From positions 434,001 to 498,000 of the forward strand of contig JAENYZ010000001.1 in NCBI GenBank assembly GCA_016841525.1: a stretch of DNA of 64,000 nt, read 5' to 3'. Below are positions 2,201-30,966 of this stretch, piece after piece (the stretch's first letter is position 1; every line of letters starts with the position of its first letter). The stretch is from Anaerolineaceae bacterium. GTDB taxonomy: Bacteria; Chloroflexota; Anaerolineae; Anaerolineales; Anaerolineaceae. The notes beneath the pieces were generated by a model that was not told the DNA's origin, did no database searches, and saw only the letters and a program-made list of their open reading frames with translations. The position numbers and the translations under genes were made by a program.

Positions 2201-2377
2201 GTAAAGATGTACTCTTTCATGTTATTGACTTATTATATTATATGAGGAAAATCCTTTTTGGACTCAGGACAAAGATAAGATAATACTTTTTTGCATAACT
2301 AGTGTTGGGAAGCTATATATGAACTATCTCTTAGAGAATCACTTAAAATTATTTTTAGTCACAAATTGAATACGTAG

Positions 2378-3289: not shown

Positions 3290-3444
3290 AAATACTCCTT
3301 ATAAATAAAAACTATTACCAACTTTTTATTCACTTCATGAAATAATAATCTCTCTACTACAATCAATAATACAGTCTATATAAAGAAAACAAAACTGATC
3401 TTGAATTGTCAGTAGATCAATAGCTATTGTTCTAGATTATTTTT

Positions 3445-3849
3445 CTAATTTAACACCTTTAATCTTTGAAGAATACGACAGAGAAAACCCTTTTCAATCA
3501 TTGCGCCCCAATGACCGTCGCAAAAACGCTCCCCTCGCACATAATAGGTTATAAGCGACTTTATGTCAGCTACTGAACTTTCCTCTATGTAGTTTTCTTG
3601 TGATAGCTTCTCTGCAATCTCTTTTGGTTGGTAATTATAATCACACCATTGTTCCTGTGAGACTAACCGAAAAAATTCATCGACAACAGGATCATATTCA
3701 GGGTATGGAAAATGCCGTACCCCATTCTCGTCGGGCTCAGCCCCATGCCACTTAATGATTGGTTTGAAATCTTTAGCGCATAATTTCGGAATGTTCGATG
3801 TTAATTGCTTAATCTCTTGTCTGGTTGGTAATCTTTTTTCGTTGGACAA
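3445..3849 (-). CDS. DUF6508-type protein
   Basis: The 134-residue protein matches the pattern I associate with DUF6508: YPEYDPVVDEFF in the middle, LITYYVRGERFCDGHW near residue 105, then MIEKG and a short helical tail. Conserved Tyr, Arg, Cys and His residues cluster in that C-terminal block. Translation appears to start at a TTG (3849-3847), nine bases after an AGGAG ribosome site. The family function is not known to me; members are common as single small genes in accessory regions. It is on the same strand as its HEPN neighbour but separated by about 155 bp. Confidence 0.7.
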   Translation of the reverse strand: MSNEKRLPTRQEIKQLTSNIPKLCAKDFKPIIKWHGAEPDENGVRHFPYPEYDPVVDEFFRLVSQEQWCDYNYQPKEIAEKLSQENYIEESSVADIKSLITYYVRGERFCDGHWGAMIEKGFLCRILQRLKVLN

Positions 3850-4273
3850 GTTATTTCACTCCTAATATATTATTTGACGAATTGTCAGCTAAAAATACAT
3901 GAAAATATTTCTCAGTCTATGTAAATTGAATTTTCTCTTATGCAAATATATAATTGCCAATAGTACTATCAAAATTATGAGAGTATAAATACAATCAACT
4001 TGAGATGAACAAACCTAATTTCATGACAAAAGAATAAAATTCATAATTTCTCCACCTTGTAGAGAAAAACCAACCGTAGAGTGAAGACAGTTTAATAAAT
4101 TAACAAAACCAAAATCAGTAATTCACATATAAATTGGAAATAATATGTGATAAATAATAATGAAAAATATGTTTCATTACTTAAATTAAAGATAAACTTT
4201 TGAATTATTATTATAACTAAGATAATTTAGAGGATTTAGAAAATTTCAAATAATCGCAGTCGAAAGAGGGAAA
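3850..4273. other. intergenic, AT-rich, no gene seen
   Basis: This is the divergent spacer between the leftward DUF6508 gene and the rightward sigma-like gene. It should hold both promoters. I find no convincing RNA, repeat or coding fragment. Confidence 0.5.
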
Positions 4274-6349: not shown

Positions 6350-6541
6350 TCCAACTATTAAATCGCTTTAATAGGTGACAAAAATTTGTAATTGCACTTG
6401 CTGTCTTGTTATTGTCAATTTTATGAAATTAAAAGAAAATAATTTCTACATCCCATGAATTTGATATACATTAAATCATCAAAATTTTTCCATAAATTGT
6501 AGTGAACCCTATTTCCTAGAGCACATCAAGGATCTCCTATT
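6350..6541. other. spacer containing no visible gene
   Basis: AT-rich DNA after the sigma-like gene. It leads into the transposase remnant; I see no terminator hairpin or RNA. Confidence 0.4.
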
Positions 6542-6706
6542 GTACAAGTTCTTTCCATTCATCATCGATCCATACACTTAGTAAATACTCTTGAAAATCT
6601 AACTCGTGTGATAAGATTAAGAACTCGGGTAGTTGAAATCTTCCCGGATAGCTCTTTCTTCATTAAATTAGTTGATACTTTGTATGTAAATATTGATGAG
6701 GGATAG
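6542..6706 (+). pseudogene. C-terminal remnant of an IS256-family transposase
   Basis: Reading 6542-6706 in frame gives HHRSIHLVNTLENL, then RTRVVEIFPDSS and KLVDTLYVNIDEG before a TAG stop. This follows the C-terminal signature of IS256 (mutator-type) transposases, in which TNxLExLN is followed by a Lys/Arg pair and RTRVVGIFP. No upstream catalytic part is recognisable and no terminal inverted repeats are obvious, so it is a decayed fragment. It marks past transposition just upstream of the Trypco1/NACHT module. Confidence 0.7.
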
Positions 6707-6894
6707 CAATGTGGAAAATGCTCCACGGTAAAATAAATGAACTTGTTCTAGAATATGTGTTAATTATCCCGAAAGTATTGGTCGATTTCAGCAGAAAATG
6801 ATTTTCTACTTTTCAAATAAGCATTAATCAATGGTAATCAACTAGTATCAAATCTGGTTGTCTTGTCAATTTTACTTCAAGGAGGAAAATAATT

Positions 6895-7257
6895 ATGTCA
6901 GAGAAAATCCCCGTGGATATTTACATCGAATGGCCCGACCAGTACGGCTTACATAAAGCTTCAATTGACGATGATCTACAGAAGTTAAAAGAGAAAGCGC
7001 AAAAGGGTTTAAACATTGCAATGGGCACCATACAGGATATGGCTAACCGTGTCTCAAGCGCCATCAGGGAGATTAATGAAGATGTCTGCCCTGATGAGGT
7101 GGAGGTTGAATTCAGCATCAAGCTGGAACTGGAAGGTGGGACTGTGCTGCCGTTGGTAGCCAAGACCACTTCGGGTGGGCAGTTCAATGTCAAATTCATA
7201 TGGAAGATGGAAGAACCGCCCCAGACAAAGATATTCGTCCGTCCAGGAACCCCATAA
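6895..7257 (+). CDS. Trypco1-type (trypsin-co-occurring domain, CU044_2847-like) protein
   Basis: The 120-residue protein has an N-terminal beta segment, an amphipathic helix (about 27-60), and the diagnostic C-terminal strand block: PDEVEVEFSIKL, then VAKTTSGGQFNVKFIWK. This is the pattern of the trypsin-co-occurring domain 1 family, which is found next to or fused with trypsin-like proteases in STAND-NTPase conflict systems. An AAGGAGG ribosome site supports the start. The stop is 19 bp before the start of the trypsin-NACHT gene on the same strand, so they form an operon. Its likely role is a partner, substrate or switch for the protease domain of the next gene; that role is inferred from association only. 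Confidence 0.8.
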   Translation: MSEKIPVDIYIEWPDQYGLHKASIDDDLQKLKEKAQKGLNIAMGTIQDMANRVSSAIREINEDVCPDEVEVEFSIKLELEGGTVLPLVAKTTSGGQFNVKFIWKMEEPPQTKIFVRPGTP

Positions 7258-7276
7258 TCGGCTAAGGGTAAAAAAA

Positions 7277-10200
7277 ATGGTACAGAACTTAAATAGGATT
7301 GTCTTCCGGGTGCAGGACCCGAAGGGTAAAACCATAGGGGCAGGCTTCCTACTTTCGGAAACCTTGGCGGTCACCTGTGCGCACACGGTTAAGGATGCCA
7401 AAAGCCAGCCCGGTGAGGCTGTCAGTATACGATTTGATTGGGACGGCAGCGACCACTCTGCCACTGTCCTAACCGAAGGTTGGTCACCTTATCAAGAATA
7501 TGACATTGCTTTTCTTTCCTTAGAAGATTCACCCGTTTCCTTGGTAGCACCTGTTGCCCTGGGAACGGCGAAACACCGCGAAAACCATAATTACCTGACT
7601 CTCGGGTACCCTGAATTTGGTATTGTGGAAGCCCGTTCTCCTCGGGGTACACTGGGGCTGGTGGTGCCGGTGGCCGGGCAGAACCGCTTGGAAATCCAGG
7701 GGGCGGGGATTGCCGAGGGGATCAGCGGTGCGCCCATTCTAGATACAAACGCAGATCGCGTGGTGGGAATGCTGACCGGCTTTAAAGACGACAGCACACA
7801 ACAAATGCGGCATGCCTACGCCATCCCAGCGGATCAAATTACCAGACATGCTAAATCAACCGTGGCAATCAAAGGCCTGCGCTTATGGCCGGATGCTTTT
7901 GGCCCCGTGGAATGGAGCAATTATCTTAACCACCTGATAATGACTCATAGCGAATTGGAACTGCCCGACGGCCGCCGGACAGCGCTTGAACAGATTTACG
8001 TTTCCCTACGTGCCGACGCCATGAATGCCGCTGAACGCGCAGCAGAGCACCAGTTGTTTATCAAGGATGTCAATGACTTGATTATGAAAAGCCCAGGAAC
8101 GCCTGACCCATATACTCGCCACCAGGTTGTGAGCCGGGCTATCACCCAGAGGCCCAAGATGCAGATGCACAACACGCGTGATTGGGAGAGGATTTTAACC
8201 ACTGCAGCCCCGCAGTCGATCAACCTTGCCGAGGTGGTCCAAAGGCATCCCGTTGTGGTGCTGCTGGGCGACCCTGGCAGTGGGAAGACCACTCTGGGCC
8301 GCTGGCTAACACTTCAGCATGCCCGGGCGCTCCGGGACCGACGCTCTGAAGTTCAGGTCCCATTGGACGAGGTGCAGGTGAAAGCAGAGGAAAATGAAAC
8401 AACACCTGGCACGCACATGGTGATCTTGGGTGATTCACACCTACCGATCTTTGTTCGCATAGGGGCTTATGCCCAGGCACGCTGGCCTAAGGATGCACCG
8501 GCCGAAGGCAATGGTCTACTATTCGAGGATTTTATCCGCACCGGAAAGATCGATGATCGCGCTAAGCTCCCCACAAGCTTACCGGCTGATGCTGCAGGCG
8601 CGATCTGTCTGGAAGCCATTAGAGATGGCCGGGCTTTGCTCATCATGGATGGCCTAGATGAAGTGGCTGACCCCGACCAGAGGCGGGGGGTGATGTATAC
8701 GCTCAATGAATTTATCAAGTCACAAGACAATACTGAAAACCTTCTAGTGCTGACCTCGCGCATAGTGGGCTACCAGTTCCAGCCGCTCACACACCTACCG
8801 CATTACACTGTGGAAGATATGGCTGAACCTGCCGTGCGTGCCTTTTGCCGTGCCTGGATGGGCATAACCCAACCTCCGGAAGCCGCTGCTCAGGCGGGCC
8901 AGGAACTGGCGGATGCGATATACAAACACGGCCACCCGGGTGTGCGCGAATTAGCCGGCAACCCGCTACTACTCACCCTGCTGGCTCAAGTATACCAGGA
9001 GAGTAAAACGAAAACCCTGCCTTCGCGAAGGGTGGATCTGTTTGAAGCCGCCCTGCATTTGTTCTACCGTCGGCGTGAACATCTGTGGGATAAAAAGCAG
9101 ATCACCGAGCTGCGCCTGCGTCGCGCCTTAGGTGCAGTAGCTTTTTACATCCATGCGAATGAACCTACCGGCTGCACCGATGCCGGGCAGGCAGCAGCCT
9201 GCCTGGGCAGTATCCTGACCAATGAAGACCAGGTCAAAGAGATCCTCCGGGTAGCGGATGAAGCAACAGGTTTCCTGGTCTCCCGAGGGGAAGGTGTGTA
9301 CGCCTTTCTACACCGGGCGCTGCAAGAATACTTCACTGCGGTCTACCTGGTGCGGGATCCCGAGCAGGTCATCCAGTATCTAACGACATACGCCCTGGAC
9401 CCAACTTGGCGTGAACCGCTTGCTCTAGCCATTGGCCTACTAAGCCATGTCAATTACCCGACCACAGACAAAAAACTGCTTGATAAAATCCTGACGGCGC
9501 TGCTGGCTGTTGAAGATCTGGTGGGGGATCTAGTGCCGCGCCGTGAACTGCTATTAGCGGCAGGGTTGGCCGAATGCGAATCTATGCCGCAGCAGCCCGT
9601 CCAACAGGCTGCTGAGAACCTGCTGGAGGTTTACGCCCGCCGCAACTCAGCTGTAATGCAGAAACGCATCCAGCTCGCGTTCCGAGAGCTGCGTCGCAGC
9701 CAGGGCGCAGAAGCTGTCCGGGAGGTAATCGGCGCTGCAATACTGGGACCGGACTACAACATCCGCTGGGCCGCAGCAGATCTGATCCTGAAAACGGAGT
9801 GGTTTGATCCGTCCTTTACCGTACCCCTGCTGCAGGCCTGGCGGACCTTTGACGGCCCTTGTGGGGTTTTCCTGGCTGCAGTGGAGAAGCTATCTACAAC
9901 ACAACCCGACAGCTTTACTGATGTTCTACTGCCATTCCGGGCGGCAGTGCAGGAGGAACCACAGATTTGGGCGACAATTACAAATTCAACAGACTGGCAA
10001 GCAATCGTCCAAGCGCTTTACCTGCTGCCCAAAAGCGAATTTAAATCCGAGAACATCCTGCGAGATTCACCACTGACGCCGGCCCTGCTTGCTGCACTGC
10101 GCAGCGATGATGAGTCACCAGAAGGGCTGAAGGATCGCCTGCAAGGCCAGCTGCTGCCGCCTGGCACACCGCAGAGCCGTGATGCCGCCCTGGCCCTGAC

Positions 10201-12631
10201 CGCCCTGGGGGATGAAAGCTGGATTGACGCCTGGCTGACAAATGGTGGGCTTAGACAAAGTAGCCACCAGCTGGCGGCTGCTCTAGCCCGGTTTTTCTCC
10301 GATGACTATACACGCGCCGATGAGCGTGACAGTGACTTAGCCGGTGATTTATACGTTGACCGTGATAGTAATATTTTTGGTGACCGTGACTATAGCATAG
10401 CACGAGAACTTGCTTGTGAACTTGACCTTAATCTTCCACGTGCCAGTGTCGGTGCCCTTGCCCATGCCCTTGACATTGCTCATGCAAAAGCCCATCAGGA
10501 AAACCTTGGCATTGATATTGCCCATGTCCATGAGATTAACTATGGCCTTAACATGGCCCTTACAAATGCCAATAACCTTGCCCGTGCTATTGCCATTACC
10601 AACAATGTTGCCCGTTACATTGACGCTTTACGCAACCTTGCATTTTCCAACGCCCATATTGCTACACTCAACCTTTCCCTTGATCTTCTCAGTGCCAGTA
10701 TAATTGACAGAGACGATACCAGTACCAGATCAGATGTCTATAACCATGCCTTAGACCGGGACCGTGCCCTTGCCAGTGGCCATGACCTATACCAACAGAC
10801 AAAGGCTGAATTTCAAGAAATTAGTATTCTTATTAGAAAAAACCAAGAACGCTGGGCAGATGAACCTGAGGTCATTGATTGCCTAATGCGCAGTCAGCAC
10901 TCCATTGAGCAGTTGATGATTGCTCTGGATATACCCCAGTTAGGCATTCTCCAGCGTTTTTTTTCTGCCCTGCACGAAAGTCAGCCGCAATCCGGCGCAG
11001 TGCAGACTGAAGTTCCAGACATCAGCCTGGATGACATCGAGGTCCTGGTTGCGGCGTTGGCTAGTGCAGATAACCCGACTCGTTTCGCTGCCGTTCAATC
11101 CCTCAAAAAACCAGGCTTGGCGTCTGAAGTTGGGCGTACAGCGCTGGAATCCCTGGCAGAACAGGCCGCAGTCACTCATTCCCACCCTGATGTCAATACG
11201 CTGCTAATATGGTGTCTGGGCCAGGTGGAGCACGACCAACCCGGCTGGCTGGAAGCTTGGGCCGCTAAGCTGGCAGACCAGCCAGAACACAACCCGGCGA
11301 AAACCATCCTCAGCCATGTGGATAACATCCAGTTATCATCCGCCCACGTGTTGCTAGATCTGTTGCCCCACCCTTCTGAGGCCGTCAACCTTGCTCTGCT
11401 CAACTCCCTGCGCTGGCTTGAATCCCCAAAACCCTTACCTATAGGATGGTTCCCGGACACCTTGCAAAAGCTGGCTGCGTGGAGGCAGGACACCATGCAA
11501 AAGCTGGTTGCGTGGTGGCAATTGGAACCCAACCCGAAAACACAATCCGCCCTGCTAGCAGTACTGAGCCATTGGAGAATTAGTACAGCAAGCGCTGGCG
11601 CAGCTGTGCTGGCTAAACAACCGCACCAAGAAGCCTATAAAGATTGGCTTACTGCCCTTGCTCGTCTTTCTGTTTTAAACAAGGCGATGCAGGCCGACAC
11701 CCTGCCCATCCTCAAAGCCGGGCTACCCGAACCTTGCGCCGCGGCAGCCCTGGTGAGGCTGGAAGCAGCCTTGGTGAGGGCACCGCTCCCGCTCGATCAT
11801 CATGACAGCCCTAAGGAAAGACTTGAAAAGCACGCGCTAAAGGGTAAAGCGCTGCTGACCAAACTGCAGAATACTGATTTAGAACTTGTAGCTTTGTTTA
11901 CAGCACTGCTGGATGCCGGGGTAGATGATGACGCCTGGCAAGACAGCTATCATGGTGTATTGGCAGCTGCCGCGGCATCCCTGGTATGCGAACAACCCGA
12001 GAACCTGGGACAATTGCTGCTCAAAAACCTACTGCACCGTCTGAATAACGCCATCACCTCGCAAGGCTGGCCTCAACGGCGTATCGCGCTAGCGGCTGCC
12101 GCGGCATGTGCAGAGCAAATGCCCACCCTGCTCCAACAAGTTGCAGGGGGCCCTCTCCATTTAGAACAACTCTTAATCCAGGGTAGCCAGGATTATGAAA
12201 GTTATAATTCCCGCCGTTTCGCTATCCAGGCATTGGGTTACCTTCGCCGGGTGACCTTGGATGTCGTTCCTGTTCTGATCGCTGGCTTCCGTGAGAATAT
12301 CGAAATCGTCCAACAAGATGCCATCCGCTCGGCAGGTCATTTCCAGCAGGTGGAGGCAGAAGTAATCGAGAGCTTTATTCCACATCTCACTGGTGAAAGT
12401 CTGGTTACCGCCTACGGCGTGGCCAGGTTATTAGGCGCTGTGGGCATCTCTCCTGCTGCTGATGTGGCCATCCTGCGCCCTCGTATACTGACTGCCCTGG
12501 TTGAGGCCATCCGCCACCCCAACAGCCAGAAAGAGGTTAAAATGTTGAAAAACAACGAAGAACTTGAAACAAAAGGCATGCTGGTCGATACGCTCTATGA
12601 AGAGTTGCTGCGTGTGACGGGGTGGCTGTGA
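7277..12631 (+). CDS. trypsin-like protease / NACHT NTPase / HEAT-repeat protein (bacterial NLR-like conflict protein)
   Basis: The start chosen is ATG 7277, 8 bp after an AAGGG site; an in-frame ATG at 7175 overlaps the upstream gene and has no ribosome site. The product is 1784 residues. A chymotrypsin-fold protease occupies about 1-190 with a visible triad His36 (TCAHTV), Asp76 (YDIAFL) and Ser150 (GISGAP). The NACHT domain has Walker A at 331-339 (GDPGSGKTT), Walker B at 453-462 (ALLIMDGLDE) and a sensor-like TSR. Helical NACHT-associated modules follow (to about 740), then a long HEAT-like superhelix to the C-terminus, with an odd Asp/Ala/Leu-rich insert at about 1018-1178. The architecture fits STAND-type immune proteins: the repeats sense, NACHT oligomerises, and the protease is the effector. 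Its GC content is clearly above the flanking island genes, suggesting separate acquisition. Confidence 0.85.
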   Translation: MVQNLNRIVFRVQDPKGKTIGAGFLLSETLAVTCAHTVKDAKSQPGEAVSIRFDWDGSDHSATVLTEGWSPYQEYDIAFLSLEDSPVSLVAPVALGTAKHRENHNYLTLGYPEFGIVEARSPRGTLGLVVPVAGQNRLEIQGAGIAEGISGAPILDTNADRVVGMLTGFKDDSTQQMRHAYAIPADQITRHAKSTVAIKGLRLWPDAFGPVEWSNYLNHLIMTHSELELPDGRRTALEQIYVSLRADAMNAAERAAEHQLFIKDVNDLIMKSPGTPDPYTRHQVVSRAITQRPKMQMHNTRDWERILTTAAPQSINLAEVVQRHPVVVLLGDPGSGKTTLGRWLTLQHARALRDRRSEVQVPLDEVQVKAEENETTPGTHMVILGDSHLPIFVRIGAYAQARWPKDAPAEGNGLLFEDFIRTGKIDDRAKLPTSLPADAAGAICLEAIRDGRALLIMDGLDEVADPDQRRGVMYTLNEFIKSQDNTENLLVLTSRIVGYQFQPLTHLPHYTVEDMAEPAVRAFCRAWMGITQPPEAAAQAGQELADAIYKHGHPGVRELAGNPLLLTLLAQVYQESKTKTLPSRRVDLFEAALHLFYRRREHLWDKKQITELRLRRALGAVAFYIHANEPTGCTDAGQAAACLGSILTNEDQVKEILRVADEATGFLVSRGEGVYAFLHRALQEYFTAVYLVRDPEQVIQYLTTYALDPTWREPLALAIGLLSHVNYPTTDKKLLDKILTALLAVEDLVGDLVPRRELLLAAGLAECESMPQQPVQQAAENLLEVYARRNSAVMQKRIQLAFRELRRSQGAEAVREVIGAAILGPDYNIRWAAADLILKTEWFDPSFTVPLLQAWRTFDGPCGVFLAAVEKLSTTQPDSFTDVLLPFRAAVQEEPQIWATITNSTDWQAIVQALYLLPKSEFKSENILRDSPLTPALLAALRSDDESPEGLKDRLQGQLLPPGTPQSRDAALALTALGDESWIDAWLTNGGLRQSSHQLAAALARFFSDDYTRADERDSDLAGDLYVDRDSNIFGDRDYSIARELACELDLNLPRASVGALAHALDIAHAKAHQENLGIDIAHVHEINYGLNMALTNANNLARAIAITNNVARYIDALRNLAFSNAHIATLNLSLDLLSASIIDRDDTSTRSDVYNHALDRDRALASGHDLYQQTKAEFQEISILIRKNQERWADEPEVIDCLMRSQHSIEQLMIALDIPQLGILQRFFSALHESQPQSGAVQTEVPDISLDDIEVLVAALASADNPTRFAAVQSLKKPGLASEVGRTALESLAEQAAVTHSHPDVNTLLIWCLGQVEHDQPGWLEAWAAKLADQPEHNPAKTILSHVDNIQLSSAHVLLDLLPHPSEAVNLALLNSLRWLESPKPLPIGWFPDTLQKLAAWRQDTMQKLVAWWQLEPNPKTQSALLAVLSHWRISTASAGAAVLAKQPHQEAYKDWLTALARLSVLNKAMQADTLPILKAGLPEPCAAAALVRLEAALVRAPLPLDHHDSPKERLEKHALKGKALLTKLQNTDLELVALFTALLDAGVDDDAWQDSYHGVLAAAAASLVCEQPENLGQLLLKNLLHRLNNAITSQGWPQRRIALAAAAACAEQMPTLLQQVAGGPLHLEQLLIQGSQDYESYNSRRFAIQALGYLRRVTLDVVPVLIAGFRENIEIVQQDAIRSAGHFQQVEAEVIESFIPHLTGESLVTAYGVARLLGAVGISPAADVAILRPRILTALVEAIRHPNSQKEVKMLKNNEELETKGMLVDTLYEELLRVTGWL
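10330..10810 (+). repeat. low-complexity repetitive insert inside the HEAT region
   Basis: Within the NACHT gene this stretch is dominated by recurring words such as CTTGCC, ATTGCC and GCCCATG, and is visibly richer in A and T than the sequence on either side. It encodes about 160 residues made largely of Asp, Ala, Leu, Ile, Asn and His with short near-repeats (DRDS/DRDY, IAH, LAR, NNLA/NNVA). It stays in frame without a stop. Slippage-driven expansion of a short coding repeat would explain it. Confidence 0.65.
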
Positions 12632-12756
12632 TTTCTAAGTCTGTTCGCTTAAGTACTATTCTGGGGCCAAACGAAGTCTTTATCAGGTCAGATTTCTTTG
12701 CCAAGGCTGATATTTTCCTAACCTGTTCACATGTAGTAAAAATTACGAGTACATAA
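12628..12756 (+). pseudogene. N-terminal remnant of a second trypsin-like protease
   Basis: A GTG start overlaps the NACHT gene stop in a GTGA four-base overlap, typical of translational coupling. The 42 codons before TAA at 12754-12756 include NEVFIRSDFF and then LTCSHVVK. This is the beta-strand and catalytic-His segment (TCSH) of trypsin-like proteases, matching the TCAHTV segment of the upstream NACHT protein. No Asp or Ser segment follows, so only the first fifth of a protease remains. It may be a truncated third operon gene encoding another protease-led component. It could in principle make a short peptide, but a functional product is unlikely. Confidence 0.6.
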
Positions 12757-13170
12757 TCAGGCAGTCAATAAAATTTTCAGATGGATAAGTATGGGTAAGT
12801 TTTGATCGCTGCATGCTATGTAAATTACTGAAAGTCAATTTTCAAAGCAAACAATTTAGATCGGCGATTTACTTGAGCAATCGGTACGAAAAAATGTTCA
12901 GTTTTAGTTATGATACACTTACCCGATTTCCTATAGAACGCATACAGGTGGAATAAGACTTCCATCTCACAAGTAAAATTAAACTGCAGAAGATCAAACG
13001 AACTGGCAACAGAGTAGATCGTAGGAAGGAAAATGTCTAAGTTGACAAAATGATGAGTGACAATTGGGTTTCTGAATATTATTAAAAATAAAAATAAATT
13101 AGGTAATAGACAACAAGCTCAAGGTTCTACCAAAGCGGTGAGCGGGCTTTTTTAGGCATAACACAAATCA

Positions 13171-13207
13171 GCACCCGGCGAATTTACAATTGACTGGGTG
13201 TTTTTCT
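13171..13207 (+). terminator. rho-independent terminator
   Basis: CACCCGG and CTGGGTG (one G-T pair) form a stem around a 15-base loop, followed by TTTTTCTTT. It would end rightward transcription from the Trypco1-NACHT operon and its truncated third gene. Confidence 0.6.
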
Positions 13208-13224
13208 TTCAGATAAAATCTCGG

Positions 13225-13285
13225 TAAAGTCTCATAAAGTAGTGAAAAAAAGGTTGATGAAATAATCATCGTATGCTTCCATAAA
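13225..13285. repeat. partial copy of a dispersed ~110-bp repeat
   Basis: It shares the words TCATAAAGTAGTG, GTTGATGAAATA, TCATC and TGCTTC, in the same order, with the better copies at 13988-14110 and 15200-15325. This copy lacks the right half. Confidence 0.5.
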
Positions 13286-13616
13286 GTTAAACACAATATT
13301 ACTTTGAAAAGGAAACCAATAAAAGGGTGATGAGACTAGGCATCGTTGCTTAGGTGGATCCGAAAATGCCCATTTCAAGATTGTACTAAATTAGGGCTGT
13401 TGGCCCAATAAATGAGATAAAAACAGATGTGGTGGTTTGAACATGAATAAAACTCCAAATATCCATAAAATTTTCAAGCTGGATTCAATCATGAGAAAAC
13501 CATATCCGAAATTTGCCACATTCAAGACATGAAATGGATCTTAGATTATAATCTTGGTATATTGTCTGAGTAACAAAACTTATTATTTTTGTTTTATTCT
13601 TTAGTCGAATGCAAAA

Positions 13617-13901
13617 ATGACAAAAGATTTTCAGTTTGGAAAAAAGGATCTTCAAAATATTCCTCTACCAAAAATTCAGTGGAGAAAAGAATTTTGGTTA
13701 GCCTTTATTCCATATGTGATCAGCTTTATTCTCTTTTTTGTTCCAAATTTAGTAAATGCGGAAGAATACAGAATATCAAGAAATATTATAGGATTCATTT
13801 TACTTTTATGTCCATTATTTGTTACCCTCCTATTTTGGATTGTAAATTGGCTCAAGGCGGTTGAAAAAAGAGTAAATAATTACGATCATTTACACAAGTG
13901 A
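13617..13901 (+). CDS. small two-helix membrane protein, unknown
   Basis: The 94-residue frame has two clear membrane helices (about residues 26-46 and 57-79) with basic residues around them, and ends with a charged tail. The ribosome site is weak, so the start is uncertain. An overlapping frame lacks such a coherent pattern. No family is recognised. It stands alone between repeat-rich spacers. Confidence 0.5.
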   Translation: MTKDFQFGKKDLQNIPLPKIQWRKEFWLAFIPYVISFILFFVPNLVNAEEYRISRNIIGFILLLCPLFVTLLFWIVNWLKAVEKRVNNYDHLHK

Positions 13902-14437
13902 CTTTTCTGTTTTTTATCCAATGCGGTATATCGGAGGCATATATTTAGAAAACCGACCAATGATTCCGAAAATAAAACGGATATTAACTTATAAAGATGT
14001 GGAAAAGGGTTGACGAAATAGTCACCATTTGCTTCTCTCTAGGCAGATAAAAACCTGCTTCGGATAGAAAGCCTTACTTAGGCATGATGATACTATACGT
14101 CAGCAACGGTAGTGTCTTGATAGGTAACGTCTTGTCAAGTGGTGTAAATTGAATTTTATACTTCCAGGTTAATTTGGGCGCTTTTAAGAATAAACCCCCT
14201 AGATTCAAGAATCAAGTTCACCAATGTTTTTCTAAGAATACCACAGCTTGAAGGGGCCTTATTCTACCGCAGCTTACCTTTCTGCTACCAGCGTTGTTAC
14301 ACTTGCGAGTTGAATCCAAGTTTATAAATGACCCATTATTTCAACTGGTTGATGAGAATAATACTTCACTCTAATCGTGGTTTGTTGCTATGTTATGTAA
14401 GAAAATGAGATAAACACATTGTTGACATAGGTCAAAA
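13902..14437. other. spacer with a dispersed repeat and no gene
   Basis: It carries the repeat copy at 13988-14110. The part at 14130-14340 has scattered words that look like old mobile-element ends, but I could not identify a transposase. No credible reading frame is present. Confidence 0.4.
13988..14110. repeat. dispersed ~110-bp repeat, copy 2
   Basis: It shares with 15200-15325 the series TTATAAAG, a GTTGACGAAATAGTCA-like block, TTTGCTTCT, AGATAAAAACCTGCTTCGGATAGAAAG, CTTA and a CAT(G/A)ATG block. In the second location the right end overlaps the 3' end of the gene at 15296-15583, so this copy may be a relic of a related gene's 3' end. Confidence 0.65.
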
Positions 14438-15091
14438 CTAATACTCATAAAACCCCAAATTCAATGTTGGAGTTTGGATTTCCTCACTGTTCTCAAGAAT
14501 GAATATATAGGTAGCCTCAAGAGGAGAATATCCTTCTCTATAATAAGTGGTACCACTATAGCCGTAAACATCAAATCCGAAGAAAACAATATATAACAAA
14601 GAATATACTTCATAACTTTCCCCTGCTTTGATTGTAAATGGCATTTCTTGTAACAAACTATAAGGAGGCTGAGGTTCAGTTTTTAGTTGTGAAACACCTT
14701 TATATTCGTCGTTGAGTAACCTAATTGATACATACTGCATATTAGGTAGTTGACTCATAGATTTAGATATCGTATTTGTTTGACTTACTACCAGTTTTGA
14801 GTTGCTAGCAAAGGATATTCTTGTTTTAAACCCAATTATATTTACATCTTTATTCCCAAGATTCTTCAAAAGAAAATATACATTACGTTCTGATTGATAA
14901 TGCCTTTCACTTCCTATAGAAGAACCGCCAGAAACACTTGAATCAACAACTACTAGACGAGAAGGAATCAAATCTTTTGAAATTTCATTTGCTTCTTTTG
15001 CATAATTATTTGCAATAATTGAGATAACGAGTGAAGAAAATGCAACCAATAATGCTAATATTTCTATAATTCGCTTTGGTTTATCCTTCAT
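14438..15091 (-). CDS. membrane-anchored protein of unknown function
   Basis: The 217-residue product has a short basic N-terminus, one membrane helix at about 8-28, a short helical connector, and a beta-rich extracytoplasmic domain of about 170 residues. This layout is frequent among accessory membrane-anchored proteins of unknown function. An AGAGGA ribosome site lies 5 bp before the ATG. It is unlinked to the neighbours by spacing. The family is not recognised. Confidence 0.65.
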   Translation of the reverse strand: MKDKPKRIIEILALLVAFSSLVISIIANNYAKEANEISKDLIPSRLVVVDSSVSGGSSIGSERHYQSERNVYFLLKNLGNKDVNIIGFKTRISFASNSKLVVSQTNTISKSMSQLPNMQYVSIRLLNDEYKGVSQLKTEPQPPYSLLQEMPFTIKAGESYEVYSLLYIVFFGFDVYGYSGTTYYREGYSPLEATYIFILENSEEIQTPTLNLGFYEY

Positions 15092-15199
15092 TTTTCCTCT
15101 AAATCATCATGCGGCTATATTAAGCTAACCAACAATAATAAGTAGATTAGCAATGCTTAATTTTATCATCATGTTACTAACAAAAGTGTAGCAAACTAG

Positions 15200-15325
15200 A
15201 TAATATCTTATAAAGTGGTGTAAAAAGTCGACGAATAAGTCATCTTGTGCTTCTATTTAGGTAGATAAAAACCTGCTTCGGATAGAAAGTCTTAATTAGA
15301 CATAATGCGACTGTGCGTCAGTGGT
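15200..15325. repeat. dispersed ~110-bp repeat, copy 3
   Basis: This is the best-preserved copy, overlapping the last codons and 3' flank of the leftward small gene at 15296-15583. See 13988-14110 for the shared words. It could be a 3' untranslated element that travels with this gene family. Confidence 0.6.
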
Positions 15326-15583
15326 CCATTGGGTATTGATCATCCAGAGATCTTTGAATAAATAGGGAACGCATCCTTCAAAAGCGTACACCTCCTCATA
15401 ATCCCCATCTCCGACCGAAACAAACAGACCTGAGAAATTGAAAGGATCATCGTCGTCAAGGGCTGGGTAACCAAGATAATCCAGGATATATTTAACCTCC
15501 TTGGCGTCTGTAATTAACATTAGGTCCCTGCGATCTTGGATTCCCTTAATTATTCCAACACAAGTATTACTTGGTTTTAACAT
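15296..15583 (-). CDS. small acidic protein with a GCVPYLF motif, unknown
   Basis: I place the start at ATG 15583 because AAGGAG lies 7 bp upstream; a longer frame to 15622 would contain that ribosome site. The 95-residue protein is soluble, with an acidic DDDDP stretch near the middle and the motif SGLFVSVGDGD followed by FEGCVPYLF. A partner with the same GLFV....GCVPYL arrangement is encoded at 42715-42915, so this is a small local family. Function is unknown. It is the last gene before the attachment-site region. Confidence 0.6.
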   Translation of the reverse strand: MLKPSNTCVGIIKGIQDRRDLMLITDAKEVKYILDYLGYPALDDDDPFNFSGLFVSVGDGDYEEVYAFEGCVPYLFKDLWMINTQWTTDAQSHYV

Positions 15584-15788
15584 GGTATATCTCCTTTCTG
15601 CTGGATATATGGTCTCCAGCATGGTATAATGGGCAATGGGAATAAAAATTTCCTCCCCACCTTTTAAGGCTAATCGCCAATGTTTGATTGTTAATAAGCT
15701 TAGAAATGGGAAGGTTTTTGATTTATAATTAAGTAAAAAAGGGAAATTTCACCTCCGGTGGAGAAACCACCAAATTATCTACCCCAAA
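15584..15788. promoter_or_regulatory. upstream region of the GCVPYLF gene
   Basis: AT-rich spacer that should contain the leftward promoter. It includes a short inverted repeat around TTCACCTCCGGTGGAGAA (about 15748-15765). No other feature is visible. Confidence 0.35.
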
Positions 15789-15901
15789 CTTACTGCAATC
15801 TTACTGCAACCCAGTGATAATCCTTATACATATTACACCAAATGTACAAAAACACCTCTATATACAGGGGTTAACAGAACATGTTAACCCCATATATACG
15901 G
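15789..15901. repeat. copy 2 of the element-end repeat, next to the tRNA fragment
   Basis: It contains the same TTACTGCAA pair, CCCAGT and TTATACATATTA as 1715-1827, and ends at CATATATACGGG. Two stem-loops overlap it: GGGGTTAAC/GTTAACCCC (15867-15875 with 15883-15891) and ATACGGG/CCCGTAT (15896-15902 with 15910-15916). The position directly before the tRNA 3' half supports an integrase-binding end. Confidence 0.7.
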
Positions 15902-15922
15902 GTTATACTCCCGTATGTACTC

Positions 15923-15967
15923 CTTCGAATCAGTAGGTTGCGCGTTCGAGTCGCGCCGGGGGCGCCA
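15923..15967 (+). other. 3' half of a tRNA gene (probable tRNA-Arg TCG): integrase attachment site
   Basis: The segment reads as an anticodon loop CTTCGAA (15923-15929), 3' anticodon stem TCAGT, variable loop AGGTT, T-arm GCGCG-TTCGAGT-CGCGC (15940-15956), acceptor strand CGGGGGC (15957-15963), discriminator G and encoded CCA (15965-15967). The bases before the loop do not pair with TCAGT, and no D-arm or GCCCCCG acceptor strand exists upstream. It is therefore a duplicated 3' half, as left by tyrosine integrases that recombine in the anticodon loop. It marks the right end of the accessory island. Confidence 0.75.
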
Positions 15968-16200
15968 TTTATTTAATTAGGTTCGAGTCGCTCACGCCCA
16001 AAGGGGGCTTCGCACGTGGCGCTATTTATTTAATTAGGTTCGAGTCGCGCACGCCCAAAGGGGGCTTCGCACGGGGCTCTATTTTATTTAACTTGGTTCG
16101 AGTCGCTCACGCCCAAAGGGGGCTCCGCACGGGGCGCTATTTATTTAATTAGGATCGAGTCGCGCACGCTCAAAGGGGGCTTCGCACGGTCGAAGAGGTC
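15968..16200. repeat. 57-bp tandem repeat array, four units, T-arm-like
   Basis: The word GTTCGAGTCG (GATCGAGTCG in the last unit) recurs at 15981, 16038, 16096 and 16153, so the period is 57-58 bp. Each unit has TTTATTTAATTAG, the T-loop-like word, CACGCCCAAAGGGGGCTTCGCAC and a GGGGCGC-like end. The array starts exactly after the tRNA fragment and reuses its T-arm sequence, so it may derive from repeated events at the attachment site. Confidence 0.85.
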
Positions 16201-20123: not shown

Positions 20124-20420
20124 TCATTTGCGCTACTGCCCCCTGAAGGGGGTTCCGCTTCGCTCCAGGACGATGAAGCAGGTGGCTTGTAGCTGGTAGG
20201 GCGTAGCAAGAAGACAGAGGACCGAGGACAGGAGACGGAAAAGAAAGCTGATCACAGATTTTTCATAAAATACCCTACGGGCACCTTGTCTGTGTACGCC
20301 TGATGCAACCTGAAGCCGCTCAGGCTAAGCTGATCCCACTCGCTTCGATCCAGTTCACCCTTGCGGATTCGTTCCTACTCCCTTCGCTACGCTCCAGCCC
20401 CCTGAAGGGGGTTCCGCTAC
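20124..20420. repeat. intergenic repeat cluster, copy B
   Basis: It contains the hairpin module GCCCCCTGAAGGGGGTTCCGCTTCGCTCCAGGA at about 20138-20170, a heptanucleotide run, the 18740-type repeat at 20246-20347, and a second hairpin module at about 20397-20420. No coding sequence is supported. Confidence 0.75.
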
Positions 20421-21274
20421 GCTTCAGGAGTTCCACTTCGTTCCAAAGGAAATCGAACCGAAACGAATAATACTTTGCAGCTCGTAGCTGGTAGGTGGTA
20501 GCTCGTAGCATTTTTCCGTCATTGCGAGGCACGAAGCAATCTCAGAATAGGGAATCAGGTACCAGGCGATCAGGTATTGGGGAAATAATGTTAAATTGTC
20601 ACCAGTGCTAATTCTGTCATCAGCCATTTTAATTACATCCTCGTTGAGATTGCTTCCTTTCATAACAGGACACATCGTAGATTGGTAGTTGGTAGTTCAA
20701 AGTCTTTTGTAGGGCGGGATGCGTTTTCATCCCGCCATTTTGATTACTTGCGTCGGTTAAGCTCACCTTTACGGATTAATTCCTACTCCCTTCGCTACGC
20801 TTCTGCCTCCTGAAGGGGGTTCTGCTACGCTTCAGCCCCCTAACGGGGGTTTTGCTCTGCTTCAGGAGTTCCACTTCGTTCCAAGGGAAAACGAACCGAA
20901 ACGAATAAAACTTTGTAGCTCGTAGCTGGTAGGTGGTAGATCGTAGCATTTTTCCGTCATTGCGAGGGACGAAGCAATCTCAGAATTGGGAATCAGGTAC
21001 CAGGCGATCAGGTATTGGGGAAATAATGTTAAATTGTCACCAGTGCTAATTCTGTCATCAGCCATTTTAATTACATCCTCGTTGAGATTGCTTCCTTTCA
21101 TAACAGGACACATCGTAGATTGGTAGTTGGTAGTTCAAAGTCTTTTGTAGGGCGGGATGCGTTTTCATCCCGCCATTTTGATTACTTGCGTCGGTTAAGC
21201 TCACCTTTACGGATTCGTTCCTACTCCCTTCGCTACTCTTCTGCCCCCTGAAGGGGGTTCCGCTACGCTTCTGC
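20421..21274. repeat. tandem duplication, 438-bp period, two copies
   Basis: Units at about 20421-20836 and 20859-21274 are nearly identical. Each contains the hairpin module, a heptanucleotide run, a GTCATTGCGAGG word with the inverted pair GAAGCAATCTCA / TGAGATTGCTTC about 110 bp apart, and a TAGGGCGGGATGCG hairpin. The inverted pair looks like a MITE-type element. Short frames within are repeated in both copies but have no coding character. Confidence 0.85.
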
Positions 21275-21439
21275 CCCCTGAAGGGGGTTCCGCTACGCTC
21301 CAGAGGTTCCACTTTGTTCCAGCAGAGGCGGAGCATGGCTTCGCTGATCACCGCCAGGTGCTGGGGGAACACCGATGTGTTCGCCACTGCGCTGAGGCGG
21401 CTTGCAGCCACTTCAGCTTGATGCATTAGTATTACCGGT

Positions 21440-22073: not shown

Positions 22074-23762
22074 TTAAAGAACAATTTCATTTGGGTTTTC
22101 TACTTCAATAAATTTTTCAATTACACCACAAAGCCTTACAATCTTGGCAGCATCAACACTTTTCTCAACAACAATTTGATAGAGTACATGTTGTGGCTTA
22201 CGATGTGAACTAACCTTATTAATCCCCAGGTATGTTTCAAGACAATTGTCAAAAAATATTATATTCCCGCTATACTCATTTCTCTGATCCTTGATGAAAT
22301 CATTTATTTTTATTTGATCTGCATCAGATTTGTCTGTATCCATTATGATTGAATGGTTAATTTTGAGCTTACCTAAAATACTCATAAATCTGTGGATGTT
22401 AAATTTACCTATACAATCCACGACAAAAAATTCCTTATTTATATCATTAATCAAACCGGTTTCAATAAAATAGTTAATTAATGCACATTCGCTCATACCT
22501 TCGACTAATATGACGTGATTTGCAAAAAACATACCACAGCGATTTGGGTCAAACCATAAAGCATACTTAATTGCTTCCATTTCAGGTGCTAACCCCTCAC
22601 GATCAGTTTCAAATTTTGTTCCAGCAAGGAAATCATTAACTTTCTGGTTATCGTTAATTAAATTATCTAGGTCAGAGTCGTTTATATAACCGATTGTTGT
22701 AGCCTCTGAGTTTCTTGTTAAGTGAATTATTGATGATAAATCTAAAATATTATTCGAAACAAAATGAGGGGAATGAGTTGATACTAAGACTTGAAGATTG
22801 TCTGCCTCATTTCTAACAATTGAACGTAAGCTGTCGGCGATTAGTAATTGTTGAGATGGGTGCAAGAAAACTTCGGGCTCTTCGAATAAAATTAATGTAA
22901 ATTCAGGCCTAAATACACCCTCTCGATTGGTGGGTAATTCTTTTGAATACTCAGAACTTAATTTTATAAGCGTGTAAATCAGATGCCGTTGCAATCCAGC
23001 GCCGTGTTTTTCTACATCAATAATTGAATTAATAATTTTATCTTTAGTTGCATATTTTACAGATTGTTTGATGATATCATCCTCAGATGGGGGAGCAAAA
23101 TCAACCTCGAACTCTACTTGCCAACTTGATAAAGACGCATTTATATCCCGTTGAAGGGACCCGATTGAAAAACCCTTTTCTGTCTCCTCTTTGCATATAG
23201 AATCATAAAATTGCTGATAGTCTTCGACAAATCTCGTATAAGCCTGACTATTTTGGATAAGTGGTCTCAACACTTGATGGATCAAATCGCGAAAAGGGGA
23301 CGGACCTGTTAGTTTTAATTGATCAGAAATCCTGCTAACAGCTGGAATGTAAATAACTTTTCCAATTTTTCCTTTTTGAACAAAACCATAAAATTCATTT
23401 TGTGAAAGATTTTCACCTTCATACGCATAAATTTTATTATCTTTATGGTCACCATCCTTTGCAATAAAATACTTCCGCAATGTAATGCAGTTTGGTTTTG
23501 TCTTGTATTCATTTTTTAATAAATCATATTCAGAATCGGGAACATAGTATTCTAATTCGATCCAGCTTTCCTCATCGGTTACGGCAAATTTTGGAAAGTC
23601 TCTTTCAAAATCAAATTTTTCCCCAAAAAAACATCTGAGGCAATCTATGACATTTGTTTTTCCTGAATTATTTTGCCCAACCAAAAGTGAATATTCACGT
23701 AACTCAAACTTAACATCTTTTATTGATCGAAAATTATGGATCTTTACCTTATCAATTCTCAT
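22074..23762 (-). CDS. OLD-family ATP-dependent endonuclease (AAA ATPase + TOPRIM)
   Basis: The 562-residue protein begins with the SMC/RecF-like pattern KIHNFRSIKDV and Walker A GQNNSGKT at 29-36. The Walker B segment LILFEEPEVFLHPS and the switch STHSPHF lie near the middle. A C-terminal TOPRIM domain shows VILVEGMSE and later DTDKSD. OLD nucleases cut DNA under ATPase control; the family includes P2 Old and the GajA subunit of Gabija. No UvrD-like GajB helicase is next to it, so a stand-alone class 1 OLD is more likely. A GAGG site precedes the ATG. It is AT-rich compared with the GH3 and DegV genes, suggesting an accessory insertion. Confidence 0.88.
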   Translation of the reverse strand: MRIDKVKIHNFRSIKDVKFELREYSLLVGQNNSGKTNVIDCLRCFFGEKFDFERDFPKFAVTDEESWIELEYYVPDSEYDLLKNEYKTKPNCITLRKYFIAKDGDHKDNKIYAYEGENLSQNEFYGFVQKGKIGKVIYIPAVSRISDQLKLTGPSPFRDLIHQVLRPLIQNSQAYTRFVEDYQQFYDSICKEETEKGFSIGSLQRDINASLSSWQVEFEVDFAPPSEDDIIKQSVKYATKDKIINSIIDVEKHGAGLQRHLIYTLIKLSSEYSKELPTNREGVFRPEFTLILFEEPEVFLHPSQQLLIADSLRSIVRNEADNLQVLVSTHSPHFVSNNILDLSSIIHLTRNSEATTIGYINDSDLDNLINDNQKVNDFLAGTKFETDREGLAPEMEAIKYALWFDPNRCGMFFANHVILVEGMSECALINYFIETGLINDINKEFFVVDCIGKFNIHRFMSILGKLKINHSIIMDTDKSDADQIKINDFIKDQRNEYSGNIIFFDNCLETYLGINKVSSHRKPQHVLYQIVVEKSVDAAKIVRLCGVIEKFIEVENPNEIVL

Positions 23763-24074
23763 AGAAATTCCTCAAATATTTATAAAAGATAATTTTTGGG
23801 TATAACAAGCAATCAAATCTAATTTCATCTCAATGATTAATAGATGAAAACAATACACAAATGATTTTATCTTGAAACAACCATAGCACTTTATGGATCA
23901 AGGATTAATTTATTGATTTTTGTTTTTCGGTTTTATTCATTTACCTCCCATATTTAATATTCATTTTCCCGCTATTTTTGAATTCTGAATATATTATACA
24001 TTATTTATTGACATATGCATTTCAAAATACTTTTATGACTTTGGACGGGTCTGATAAAGAAAGAAGATCTCTTC
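23763..24074. other. intergenic, no gene seen
   Basis: AT-rich region upstream of the OLD gene, presumably including its promoter. I see no repeat or RNA signal. Confidence 0.4.
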
Positions 24075-24209
24075 TTATCCAGGGAGCATCTCACCTAAAG
24101 CTTTAAAAACAATATTATTACTGCTTTCGGGTTGAAATGTTCTTTTTGCCTGATGCATGTGAATAATCTCTACCCCAATATCTGTATTGTAGACACAAGA
24201 GGCAAGGCG
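24075..24209 (-). pseudogene. possible C-terminal coding fragment, unidentified
   Basis: Read leftward, the frame gives DIGVEIIHMHQAKRTF, then NNIVFKALGEMLPG and a TAA at 24077-24075. The composition looks like genuine protein, but no start or upstream part remains; the 5' side runs into a heptanucleotide repeat run (about 24200-24260). The family is not recognised. Confidence 0.3.
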
Positions 24210-24551
24210 GGTGGCTCGTAGATTGTAGCTAATGGCCCATAGCTGAAAGCTAGTAGTTTAAGACACGAATCTAAAATGGTTGTCATTGCTATTATCATGA
24301 AATTGTCAAGGGTCGTTTTAAAGTTAACAAATGTGATTGGTTAGAGCATAATTAGGGACATATAGTGGCCTTGTTCTGGCGATGGCACAAAAAATCTTCA
24401 ATAATTTATTAGCAATATTATTCACTATTAATTGTTTTTATTTTCCTTCAGCTAATTTTCTTTGAAAGCAGCGTTCAAACAAAGAGGAATAATGTCGGAG
24501 GGACATGGCCACCAGCGGCCCGATATGACCTACAGATTATTGGGTTAAAGC
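24200..24551. other. spacer with a heptanucleotide run, no gene
   Basis: TGGCTCGTAGATTGTAGCTAATGGCCCATAGCTGAAAGCTAGTAG-type units occupy about 24207-24260; the remainder is AT-rich with no supported gene. Confidence 0.4.
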
Positions 24552-24573
24552 AAAAGAACGCGTTGCCGCGTTC
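24552..24573 (-). terminator. rho-independent terminator of spoVS
   Basis: GAACGCG (24556-24562) pairs with CGCGTTC (24567-24573) around a four-base loop, and the leftward transcript continues with TTTTG. It lies about 40 bp after the stop of the SpoVS gene. Confidence 0.8.
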
Positions 24574-24614
24574 ATATTGCCTATGATAGGAATGGTGGAC
24601 CTTATAAATTTTGT

Positions 24615-24923
24615 TTACTCTGCGGTAATCGTTGCAACTGCTTTTCCCTGCGGCTGTTCCTCACCACGAGGGGTTATAGTCAACCTAATAGCAGTACGGA
24701 CTTTCCCATCGATCTCTACATCAACGAATCTCGGCACACACACAATTTCAATCCCGTCATTTACCAGGTATTTATTTGCAAGAATAATCGCCTTAATGGC
24801 TTGATTGATAGCCCCAGCGCCAATTGATTGAACTTCTGCATAACGATGCTCGCGCATGACACCTGCAATTGCTCCTGCGACAGCAGCGGTGTGGGAGTTC
24901 AATGAAACTTTAATGATACTCAT
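24615..24923 (-). CDS. spoVS: stage V sporulation protein S (SpoVS) family
   Basis: The 102-residue protein has the family pattern throughout: IKVSLNSHTAAVAGAIAGVMRE at the start, then the AEVQSIGAGAINQAIKA core, and IVCVPRFVDVEIDGKVRTAI. SpoVS folds like an Alba-type nucleic-acid-binding protein. It affects septation and sporulation in Bacillus but is widespread in non-sporulating bacteria, where the role is not settled. A GGGAGAAGGGC ribosome region supports the start, and a terminator follows 40 bp downstream, so the gene is monocistronic. It is a few residues longer than the usual 86. Confidence 0.93.
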   Translation of the reverse strand: MSIIKVSLNSHTAAVAGAIAGVMREHRYAEVQSIGAGAINQAIKAIILANKYLVNDGIEIVCVPRFVDVEIDGKVRTAIRLTITPRGEEQPQGKAVATITAE

Positions 24924-25536
24924 GCCCTTCTCCCTTTTTATAGTGATTTAGTTTCAAAGCTTACAATTGTTTGATGCTATGGTGTCTTATCGGACACCAT
25001 TTTACAGGAAAATCAAAATTAATTCAAGATTTGTTTATGGAGTATGTTGAATGACATTTTGAAAAGATCATTTTTGGGGAGATGGGGTTGAAGGATGCTT
25101 CTACCCTACTGTATTAATGCTATTGGAATAGAAAAATGGGAGGAGAAAAAAATAAAATTTTATTTGATTTTCTATAACTTAACACACTTTGATTGAATAA
25201 ATAATCTATTAGACTATTGCTCAAAAATCAATCAGAAGTTGGGTTTCTTTGGTAGAATTCCTTACGCTAATAAACAAAGAAGAATTAACAAACAATATAC
25301 TTTATTTGAGATAAACCAGATATTCTCATAAAATATAAAAGTGACGATAGTTTAGATTTTCTGTTATAATAAAAGTAAGAAAATAGCACGTATGTTCTGG
25401 TAGGTATACTAATTACTTATTTATCTCAGATAAATTAAACCTAACCTATAGTGACAGAGGTATTCGCTTCGCCGGCTCCGACCTCCTCGCACATACCACG
25501 ATCTTTGATATCTACAAGGCACTCACCCCATACCCC
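24924..25536. other. 613-bp spacer, no gene seen
   Basis: AT-rich DNA between the SpoVS promoter side and the 3' end of the nuclease gene. I see no repeat, RNA or supported frame. Confidence 0.45.
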
Positions 25537-27516: not shown

Positions 27517-27647
27517 AAGTACCCCATCCATTTATATTGGGATTATTCAAAGAAACAGCTGAGGATTCCCCTCATTGACAAAATAATTTTAACAGAGTTT
27601 TCAATATTCAACTAATGACTTGATCAATTTCATTTGAGGATTATTCA

Positions 27648-28961: not shown

Positions 28962-29115
28962 TGTGAAGGTCTCCCGCCATTACCCTGAATCATATACTTA
29001 TGAATTAATTTATATCATGAATATTGCTTTCCAATCAATTTTTGTTTGACCGAGTGATTGAATCTGATTATAATAGCACAAACGGTCGATTATTATTACT
29101 TCAAAGAAGATCCTT

Positions 29116-30144: not shown

Positions 30145-30331
30145 AGTCCGACTTTGATTTCCAAAAGTCGAAACCTTGTTTTGTAGGAAAAATATTGAAA
30201 AAATTCGTGTGTGAGTTATTTTCATAAAAAATTTCCATTTATTTAGAACAGGAGACATTAAAAATTGTTGGCATAATCCCCTGATGAATGAATATCAATT
30301 ATCTATAGATAACCTATGATATACTTTTTTT

Positions 30332-30895: not shown

Positions 30896-30966
30896 TTTTT
30901 TGAATAATCAAAGACTTGATTAATTTTCGATGCATTAAATCAAGAAAATGAAGACTAAAGGCAAAA

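Follow-up and report, generated by a model that had tools for sequence, protein, structure and literature searches.

A displaced tRNA-Arg(TCG) fragment marks the right end of a defence-laden, probably composite integrative element in an Anaerolineaceae bacterium

What does the 3' half of a tRNA gene, standing alone, mark in the genome of an Anaerolineaceae bacterium? The window, the whole 64,000-nucleotide stretch that we analysed, is C5:434001-498000 of G000, a 3.2-Mb genome in nine contigs. A sequence-only reading had proposed that the fragment at 15923-15967 is an attachment site at an island edge, left by integration into a tRNA-Arg(TCG)-like gene. Comparison with the rest of the genome and with relatives confirms, at the level of sequence, that the fragment is the attR of a defence-laden integrative element of the anticodon-loop tRNA island kind. 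We are nearly certain of this account as a whole, in which a family of elements targets tRNA-Arg(TCG), crosses over at or next to the anticodon loop and has arrived repeatedly, leaving an inner element, a remnant and scars. The features of the locus are, in window coordinates:

1-1852, no strand assigned: right-hand tail of the inner (tRNA-proximal) element; whole element C5:406434-435852
1716-1852, plus strand: internal second right end, with arm repeats (1716-1738), palindrome (1782-1797) and presumed crossover bases CTTC (1849-1852)
1808-2200, minus strand: truncated brxA, a 130-aa ORF whose Pfam BrxA similarity stops at 1853
1853-15922: probable remnant of an older outer element, with brxA', a 597-aa protein, Trypco1 and trypsin-NACHT, the right-end gene and the right end
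6895-12631, plus strand: G+C-rich cargo, comprising a Trypco1 ORF (6895-7257) and a trypsin-NACHT protein with a HEAT-repeat match (7175-12631, 1818 aa)
15296-15622, minus strand: right-end gene, 108 aa, with a DUF6839 match under the Pfam cut-off; homologues lie near right ends
15790-15812, plus strand: right-end paired repeat TTACTGCAATC/TTACTGCAACC, putative integrase arm-type sites, 22/23 identical to the left-end pair
15888-15902, no strand assigned: CCCCATATATACGGG, a semi-palindromic motif inside the right end, with a counterpart CCCCCATATATAGGGG inside the left end and similar motifs, by eye, in relatives' ends
15923-15967, plus strand: attR core, displaced nt 32-76 of tRNA-Arg(TCG), 100% over 45 bp to C5:406389-406433
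15959-16189, plus strand: four 57-bp tandem units built of T-arm and acceptor pieces of the tRNA and a 22-24-bp hairpin-like insert

The fragment, its source tRNA and the element ends

The fragment, CTTCGAATCAGTAGGTTGCGCGTTCGAGTCGCGCCGGGGGCGCCA, holds the loop CTTCGAA (15923-15929), the stem TCAGT, a full T arm, the acceptor 3' strand and a CCA ending at 15967, just as had been described. ARAGORN and Rfam (gathering scores) call no tRNA within the window, so only the 3' part is present, and the claim that a 5' half is lacking stands. A 69-base query around the fragment, searched against the whole genome, gave three places, among them a complete tRNA-Arg(TCG) at C5:406358-406433, on the same contig and left of the window, whose nt 32-76 are the fragment, identical from the first anticodon-loop base through the CCA; the third and weaker match is a tRNA-Arg(GCG) on C8 (90% over 31 bp). 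Integration into tRNA-Arg(TCG) is thus supported. The two cores lie 43,489 bp (43.5 kb) apart, in the same orientation on one replicon, with a tyrosine-family integrase gene between them; complete tRNA, cognate 3' fragment, internal integrase and an interval of 2-200 kb are what Islander defines as a tRNA-targeting island (PMC4383910).

The integrase is a 389-aa ORF (C5:407300-408469, minus strand) with a Phage_integrase match (Pfam, E 1.1e-29) and an N-terminal SAM-like domain, and the solved structures related to it by sequence include integrase and Xer structures. It contains GLRQGE, HDLRHT, LGHSD and NVYSH, which we take to be its catalytic motifs. Its gene lies 0.87 kb inside the tRNA end, with its 3' end facing the 3' end of the tRNA; a search left of the window, where the sequence-only reading expected a complete tRNA and an integrase gene, therefore found both. 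We read the fragment as attR because of the 45-bp tRNA identity, the integrase facing the tRNA, and the same-genus relatives described below, in which the site has no detected element, a related one or a decayed one.

Both ends carry a pair of repeats spaced by 11 bp. The left pair (C5:406509-406531) and the right pair agree at 22 of 23 positions, against a shuffle maximum of 18 in 300; this control compares left with right in G000, using 23-mers picked by hand from a scan of the ends. At up to two mismatches G000 has four copies of the pair, all on C5, in one orientation and inside the island: at the left end, over the integrase stop (by eye the usual place in relatives), internally at 1716-1738, and at the outer right end. 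Each of the 11 ends examined, which belong to seven elements, has such a pair, and the pair begins about 72-81 bp in from a left end and 130-138 bp in from a right end. By sequence the pairs fall into the types ACTGCAACC, ACAGCTACC and GTGCAACCG, and both ends of one element are of one type, with the two ends of G014 and of G019 lying on separate contigs and paired by inference. Within a type the best match is not always the own partner (in G014, 18/23 with its partner and 20/23 with the G011 left end). The paired repeats are probably integrase arm-type sites. Beside the integrase stop, two copies of the pair enclose a 0.8-kb segment that holds a DUF1232 gene (C5:406509-407311); G007 and G014 have one copy there.

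In five right ends the tRNA identity begins at C32, within one base (for G003 with a G014-type tRNA as stand-in), which points to a crossover in or beside the anticodon loop CTTCGAA. We propose that the integrase recombines attP with tRNA-Arg(TCG) there, the paired repeats, about 75 bp inside attL and about 130 bp inside attR, probably serving as its arm-type sites. The element would bring its own copy of tRNA nt 32-76, so that integration would restore an entire gene at attL (C5:406358-406433) and leave the original 3' part displaced at 15923-15967. A new element would then enter at the rebuilt tRNA, while older ones and their attR cores shift outward and decay.

Relatives with and without an element

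A search for the integrase (E 1e-60 or better, 61 genomes including G000) gave 18 loci in 14 genomes, G000 counted. A tRNA-Arg(TCG) 3' end faces the integrase at eight of them; among the ten integrases not so placed, three face another tRNA (Lys twice, Met once), two have a tRNA reversed and five have none, one of these five being a tandem junction in G014. Named genomes yielded 17 loci in one scan. The nearest of these (74%) is G014's own contig, and the rest, mostly in Firmicutes, are at 47% identity or below except for one 28-residue match; a larger family could not be built from them. Viral contigs gave two loci at 33-38%, and the ten matches listed for each reach 30-35% in phages and 33-37% in plasmids, of 3538 and 1267 matching records, respectively.

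A complete tRNA-Arg(TCG) was present in the loci fetched from seven of 15 same-genus relatives. It stands beside an integrase in G007 (where the integrase match is partial and holds a stop), G011 and G014, and accompanies a decayed element in G013. In G006, G008 and G010 no element was detected at it; from G003 there is a right end only. G011 carries an element of about 43 kb at the same tRNA, with integrase (52%), ArdC and HIRAN (71-73%) and right-end gene (61%). It keeps these genes and those for 130-, 127- and 100-aa proteins at 52-84% identity, and two uncharacterised genes more weakly (43 and 32%); the rest of the island proteins have no match there at E 1e-5, and its own cargo includes DarT-NADAR, a methylase with a ResIII protein, and a NERD-UvrD protein. 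The right-end gene has homologues in three of the 61 genomes (G000, G011 and G014), each near a right end, 2.5 kb away in G011.

The left context of the tRNA is shared: DppF, HD gene and tRNA in G000, G006, G010 and G011, HD gene and tRNA with G007 and G008, and DppF and tRNA with G013. The left flank of G008 matches that of G000 over 978 bp at 86%, and the tRNA of G006 is identical to that of G000 over nt 1-74, with CTA in place of CCA. In G006 and G008 the left flank and intact tRNA are followed by short right-flank-like or repeat sequence, and farther right the sequence is unconserved or off the contig; in G006 the tRNA is followed directly by sequence that is 90% identical to the right flank over 94 bp, core counted. 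These sites are clean only locally, since the contigs end 283 bp (G006) and 426 bp (G008) beyond the tRNA. No second core or repeat pair, in the forms tried, was seen in the examined stretches of G006, G008 and G010; in G010 a decayed element with another type of repeat may lie farther away. G013 was dropped as an empty site, a decayed element having been found there.

The right flank has no conserved neighbourhood. Synteny fails beyond about 150 bp, and the gene right of the edge is GH3 in G000, TypA in G011, a proC-like ORF in G013 (by eye) and other sequence in G010. Five same-genus relatives have matches to GH3, at other places and with 43-46% identity, and TypA of G000 is 480 kb away, at C5:929792. 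Right-flank synteny, with its differing genes, consequently failed as proof of an empty site. The proposed comparison with relatives' empty sites was therefore borne out in part: an intact tRNA stands in the same left context, but a long right flank is not conserved.

We also observed an orphan decayed right end in G013 (C3:1489586-1489644; L051 5470-5645). It has another paired repeat, TTGCCAATCTGTTGCCAATAG (by eye), and a tRNA 3' half 85% identical to the core region; no tRNA adjoins it, and a degraded integrase is located 35 kb away. Since this end lies 833 kb from the tRNA-Arg of G013, right ends can part from the tRNA by rearrangement.

A stack of elements and scars

The island is probably a composite of at least two related elements, because it contains an internal right end that meets a truncated brxA at the bases where crossover is presumed. 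After the internal repeat copy come CCCCTATATATAGGGG (1782-1797) and AAATCAACAGGTACTTCTTC (1833-1852). The sequence past the repeats resembles the G013 right end (score 112, against a shuffle maximum of 38; 0/500) and the outer right end of G000 (score 70, against a shuffle maximum of 35; 0/500). The likeness to G013 stops after CTTC: from there G013 runs on into a decayed tRNA core, G000 into brxA. The brxA ORF matches positions 2-113 of 184 in PF08849, at C5:435853-436188. The best PADLOC BrxA model ends at residue 116, as Pfam does, and weaker models end at residues 62-127, up to 11 residues past the joint; the single relative found has an open frame of 226 aa. In the outer part, window 4556-6349 has an 86% orthologue within the 17.7-kb decayed element of G013. 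The simplest reading of these sequences is an inner element of 29.4 kb (C5:406434-435852), carrying integrase, ArdC, HIRAN, type I restriction, Septu-like and other genes, joined at the crossover site to a 14-kb older remnant, which would be followed by attR and older tRNA 3' scars. The G014 tandem junction, where a right end, an att core and the left end of another element follow one another, may model the parent arrangement.

A simpler history would have the whole 43.5 kb inserted at once, the internal right-end-like sequence being an accident or a duplicated regulatory sequence. The near-identity of the outer left and right pairs speaks for it, as does the right-end gene near the outer end, its place in G011 and G014. 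The repeats are not decisive for pairing the ends, because the left pair is identical to the internal right pair yet differs by no more than one base from the outer right pair. We nevertheless regard a single insertion as unlikely: the internal copy has its repeats, palindrome and crossover bases in the order expected of a right end, resembles (beyond the repeats) the G013 right end more than the outer one, and loses its likeness to G013 at the crossover bases, where Pfam BrxA similarity begins. That the fragment is a chance tRNA pseudogene, or the locus a mis-assembly, is extremely improbable, notwithstanding the general risk of wrong joins in draft genomes; the 45-bp identity to a complete tRNA-Arg(TCG), the matched repeats at both ends and an architecture common to several species stand against it.

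How the brxA joint in the composite island arose is a closer question. It may be an ordinary deletion in a former tandem array that ended at the crossover site by coincidence, rather than a product of integrase recombination; G014 preserves an intact tandem junction, the type of structure that would be lost in such a deletion, and only CTTC is common at the joint. Yet the break falls on the four presumed crossover bases, and the joint resembles the secondary sites of the mycobacteriophage Fionnbharth integrase, an anticodon-loop integrase whose secondary sites are reported to share only CTT (PMC10865867). We give the deletion slightly less than an even chance.

Beyond attR, the 57-bp units combine GGTTCGAGTCGC, an insert like ACGCCCAAAGGGGGCTTCGCAC, and GGGGCGCTATTTATTTAATTA, and we read them, from their sequence, as putative decayed copies of old attR. 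Their likeness to the tRNA is short: they share GTTCGAGTCGCGC (13 bp) with the core, a match as long in 2 of 2000 simulations, and 6 of 500 shuffles gave a gapped score as high. In G006 a unit of this kind stands after the intact tRNA. Ungapped matches elsewhere were longest in G006 (a 15-mer, 0/2000) and G003 (a 17-mer in both stacked scars, 0/2000), with gapped scores reached by 2/500 and 0/500 shuffles; a 10-mer shared with the core at the right end of G013 was equalled in length in 24/2000 simulations, and sequence beyond the G011 attR core gave 231/2000 ungapped as against 7/500 gapped. A control stretch inside the element gave 310/500 gapped. Candidate scars past the tRNA in G008, in G010 and on the tRNA side of G013 were discarded as no better than chance (ungapped 1883, 1841 and 411 of 2000; gapped 102, 292 and 240 of 500). 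The sequence-only reading had taken a genome without the complete tRNA, and relatives with the fragment and no island, as counting against it; a complete tRNA with the same 3' half exists, but short decayed T-arm fragments do occur without an island in G006.

Across species, displaced tRNA-Arg 3' halves carry short hairpin-like inserts of about 17-40 bp in three recurring positions, judged by eye and with some copies having fewer than all three: L062 (G003:C143) 270-700, L049 (G011) 11142-11210 and, in reverse, L102 (G013) about 1290-1395. The T-loop insert is not a genome-wide repeat: its pattern was found at three places in 16 genomes, all of them G003 or G011 att cores or scars, the G013 variant falling outside the pattern used. 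A general excess of G+C-rich hairpins in the window, considered as well, is weak (18, shuffle mean 8.5, maximum 15). Further tandem arrays lie at 37869-38085 (72-bp units), 41773-41989 (71-bp) and 20385-21321 (438-bp), with G+C-rich palindrome-like cores (by eye).

We read the locus as a stack, with the newest element at the tRNA and older remnants and scars outward. A stronger proposition, which we advance tentatively and with more doubt than belief, is that the stack is readable: entry would occur only at the rebuilt tRNA-Arg, older elements would be pushed outward and pruned by the same integrase family at secondary sites like brxA, and attR cores would persist as decayed scars in which, from species to species, short hairpin-like inserts collect at three shared positions: after CTTCG, within the T loop and before the acceptor strand. 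If true, the order of decay would be a record of past immune cargo at the tRNA-Arg locus.

Cargo, known systems and meaning

The claim of an AT-rich defence island on the left held, and that of GC-rich chromosomal DNA on the right held only for the first stretch: the island has 38.7% G+C, the left flank 46.8%, the first 6 kb right of attR 53.8%, but the whole right part of the window 42.9%. A second AT-rich block of defence type lies right of attR (22074-35952), with an OLD-like AAA/TOPRIM protein, nuclease-domain and metallo-beta-lactamase-fold proteins, DUF4238, and a DNA methylase and ResIII helicase that look like type III restriction. Within the island the 1818-aa trypsin-NACHT protein and the Trypco1 ORF stand out at 54% G+C (54.0% over 6895-12631) from an otherwise 36% G+C island (36.4% without this block) and are perhaps later cargo of other origin.

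From the left the cargo comprises a DUF1232 protein, the integrase, uncharacterised proteins, an ArdC N-domain protein and a HIRAN protein; type I restriction HsdR, HsdM and HsdS, a second N6 methylase, and a Septu-like ATPase and partner; a PDC-S18 (DUF5655) protein, a 926-aa protein with a PLD match just under cut-off, and uncharacterised proteins; then the truncated BrxA, DUF6508 and the 597-aa protein (HARE-HTH match just under cut-off), and finally Trypco1, the trypsin-NACHT protein and the small right-end protein. The Septu-like ATPase matches PtuA (E 2.7e-41), and its partner matches PDC-M01B (E 5.2e-12) and PtuB (E 6.2e-8), both over short stretches. The HsdR-type protein (C5:416523-419201; L005 12523-15201) has a carboxypeptidase-regulatory-like domain (residues 616-696, E 2.6e-14) between its helicase and C-terminal parts. 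Of the BREX set brxA, brxB, brxC, pglX, pglZ and brxL, only the truncated brxA was matched in the island (Pfam on 30 ORFs, PADLOC on 20), and brxA was sought genome-wide.

Among the Pfam matches of 30 island ORFs, a scan that covered all but short ORFs, antisense-overlapping ORFs and window 1009-1350, there were no relaxase or type IV secretion genes and no phage structural or packaging genes. PHROGs, run on eight island ORFs, matched the integrase to integrase families and, more weakly, to unknown-function families and one HNH family, and gave two others weak matches to unknown families. We accordingly rejected a conjugative element (ICE or IME) on the Pfam scan, and a prophage or phage satellite on the Pfam and PHROGs scans together.

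The closest known arrangement is Islander class A, in which 2083 of 3919 islands have an anticodon-loop crossover region and tandem members are known, with 125 cases of two or more (PMC4383910). There as here, a complete tRNA stands at one end, a displaced 3' fragment at the other and a tyrosine integrase inside; here the outer member seems to have lost its integrase and decayed fragments lie beyond attR, which makes no difference of kind. tRNA fragments left by integration are expected widely (PMC9897764). Integrase-only defence islands of E. coli, described as being of unclear mobility (PMC10121019), likewise have defence cargo, a phage-type integrase, no other known mobility genes and cargo that varies at a site; ours differs in its Chloroflexota host and in the integrase-proximal ArdC, HIRAN and small genes and the right-end gene that its elements have in common. 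With Fionnbharth-type integrases (PMC10865867) our element shares the anticodon-loop core and flanking pairs of putative arm-type sites; in contrast, it has no phage structural genes among the scanned ORFs, and it carries the whole 3' tRNA part, rebuilding the gene without a separate element-borne tRNA. A literature search that joined Anaerolineae, genomic islands, integrases and tRNA gave no paper that, judged by title, treats this subject.

The restored tRNA, the displaced 3' fragment, the anticodon-centred core and tandems are thus known already, and what this locus offers is an unusually legible stack. What began as a 45-bp oddity leads to a mobile defence island with exact boundaries, in a lineage that has received little study; unnamed cargo genes within those boundaries, such as those for the 926-aa and 556-aa proteins, become candidates for a role in defence. 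Where decay has blurred the tRNA fragment, as in G013, the paired repeats make the ends of related elements easy to locate. The nested ends illustrate how traces of earlier elements may be kept at a tRNA hotspot.
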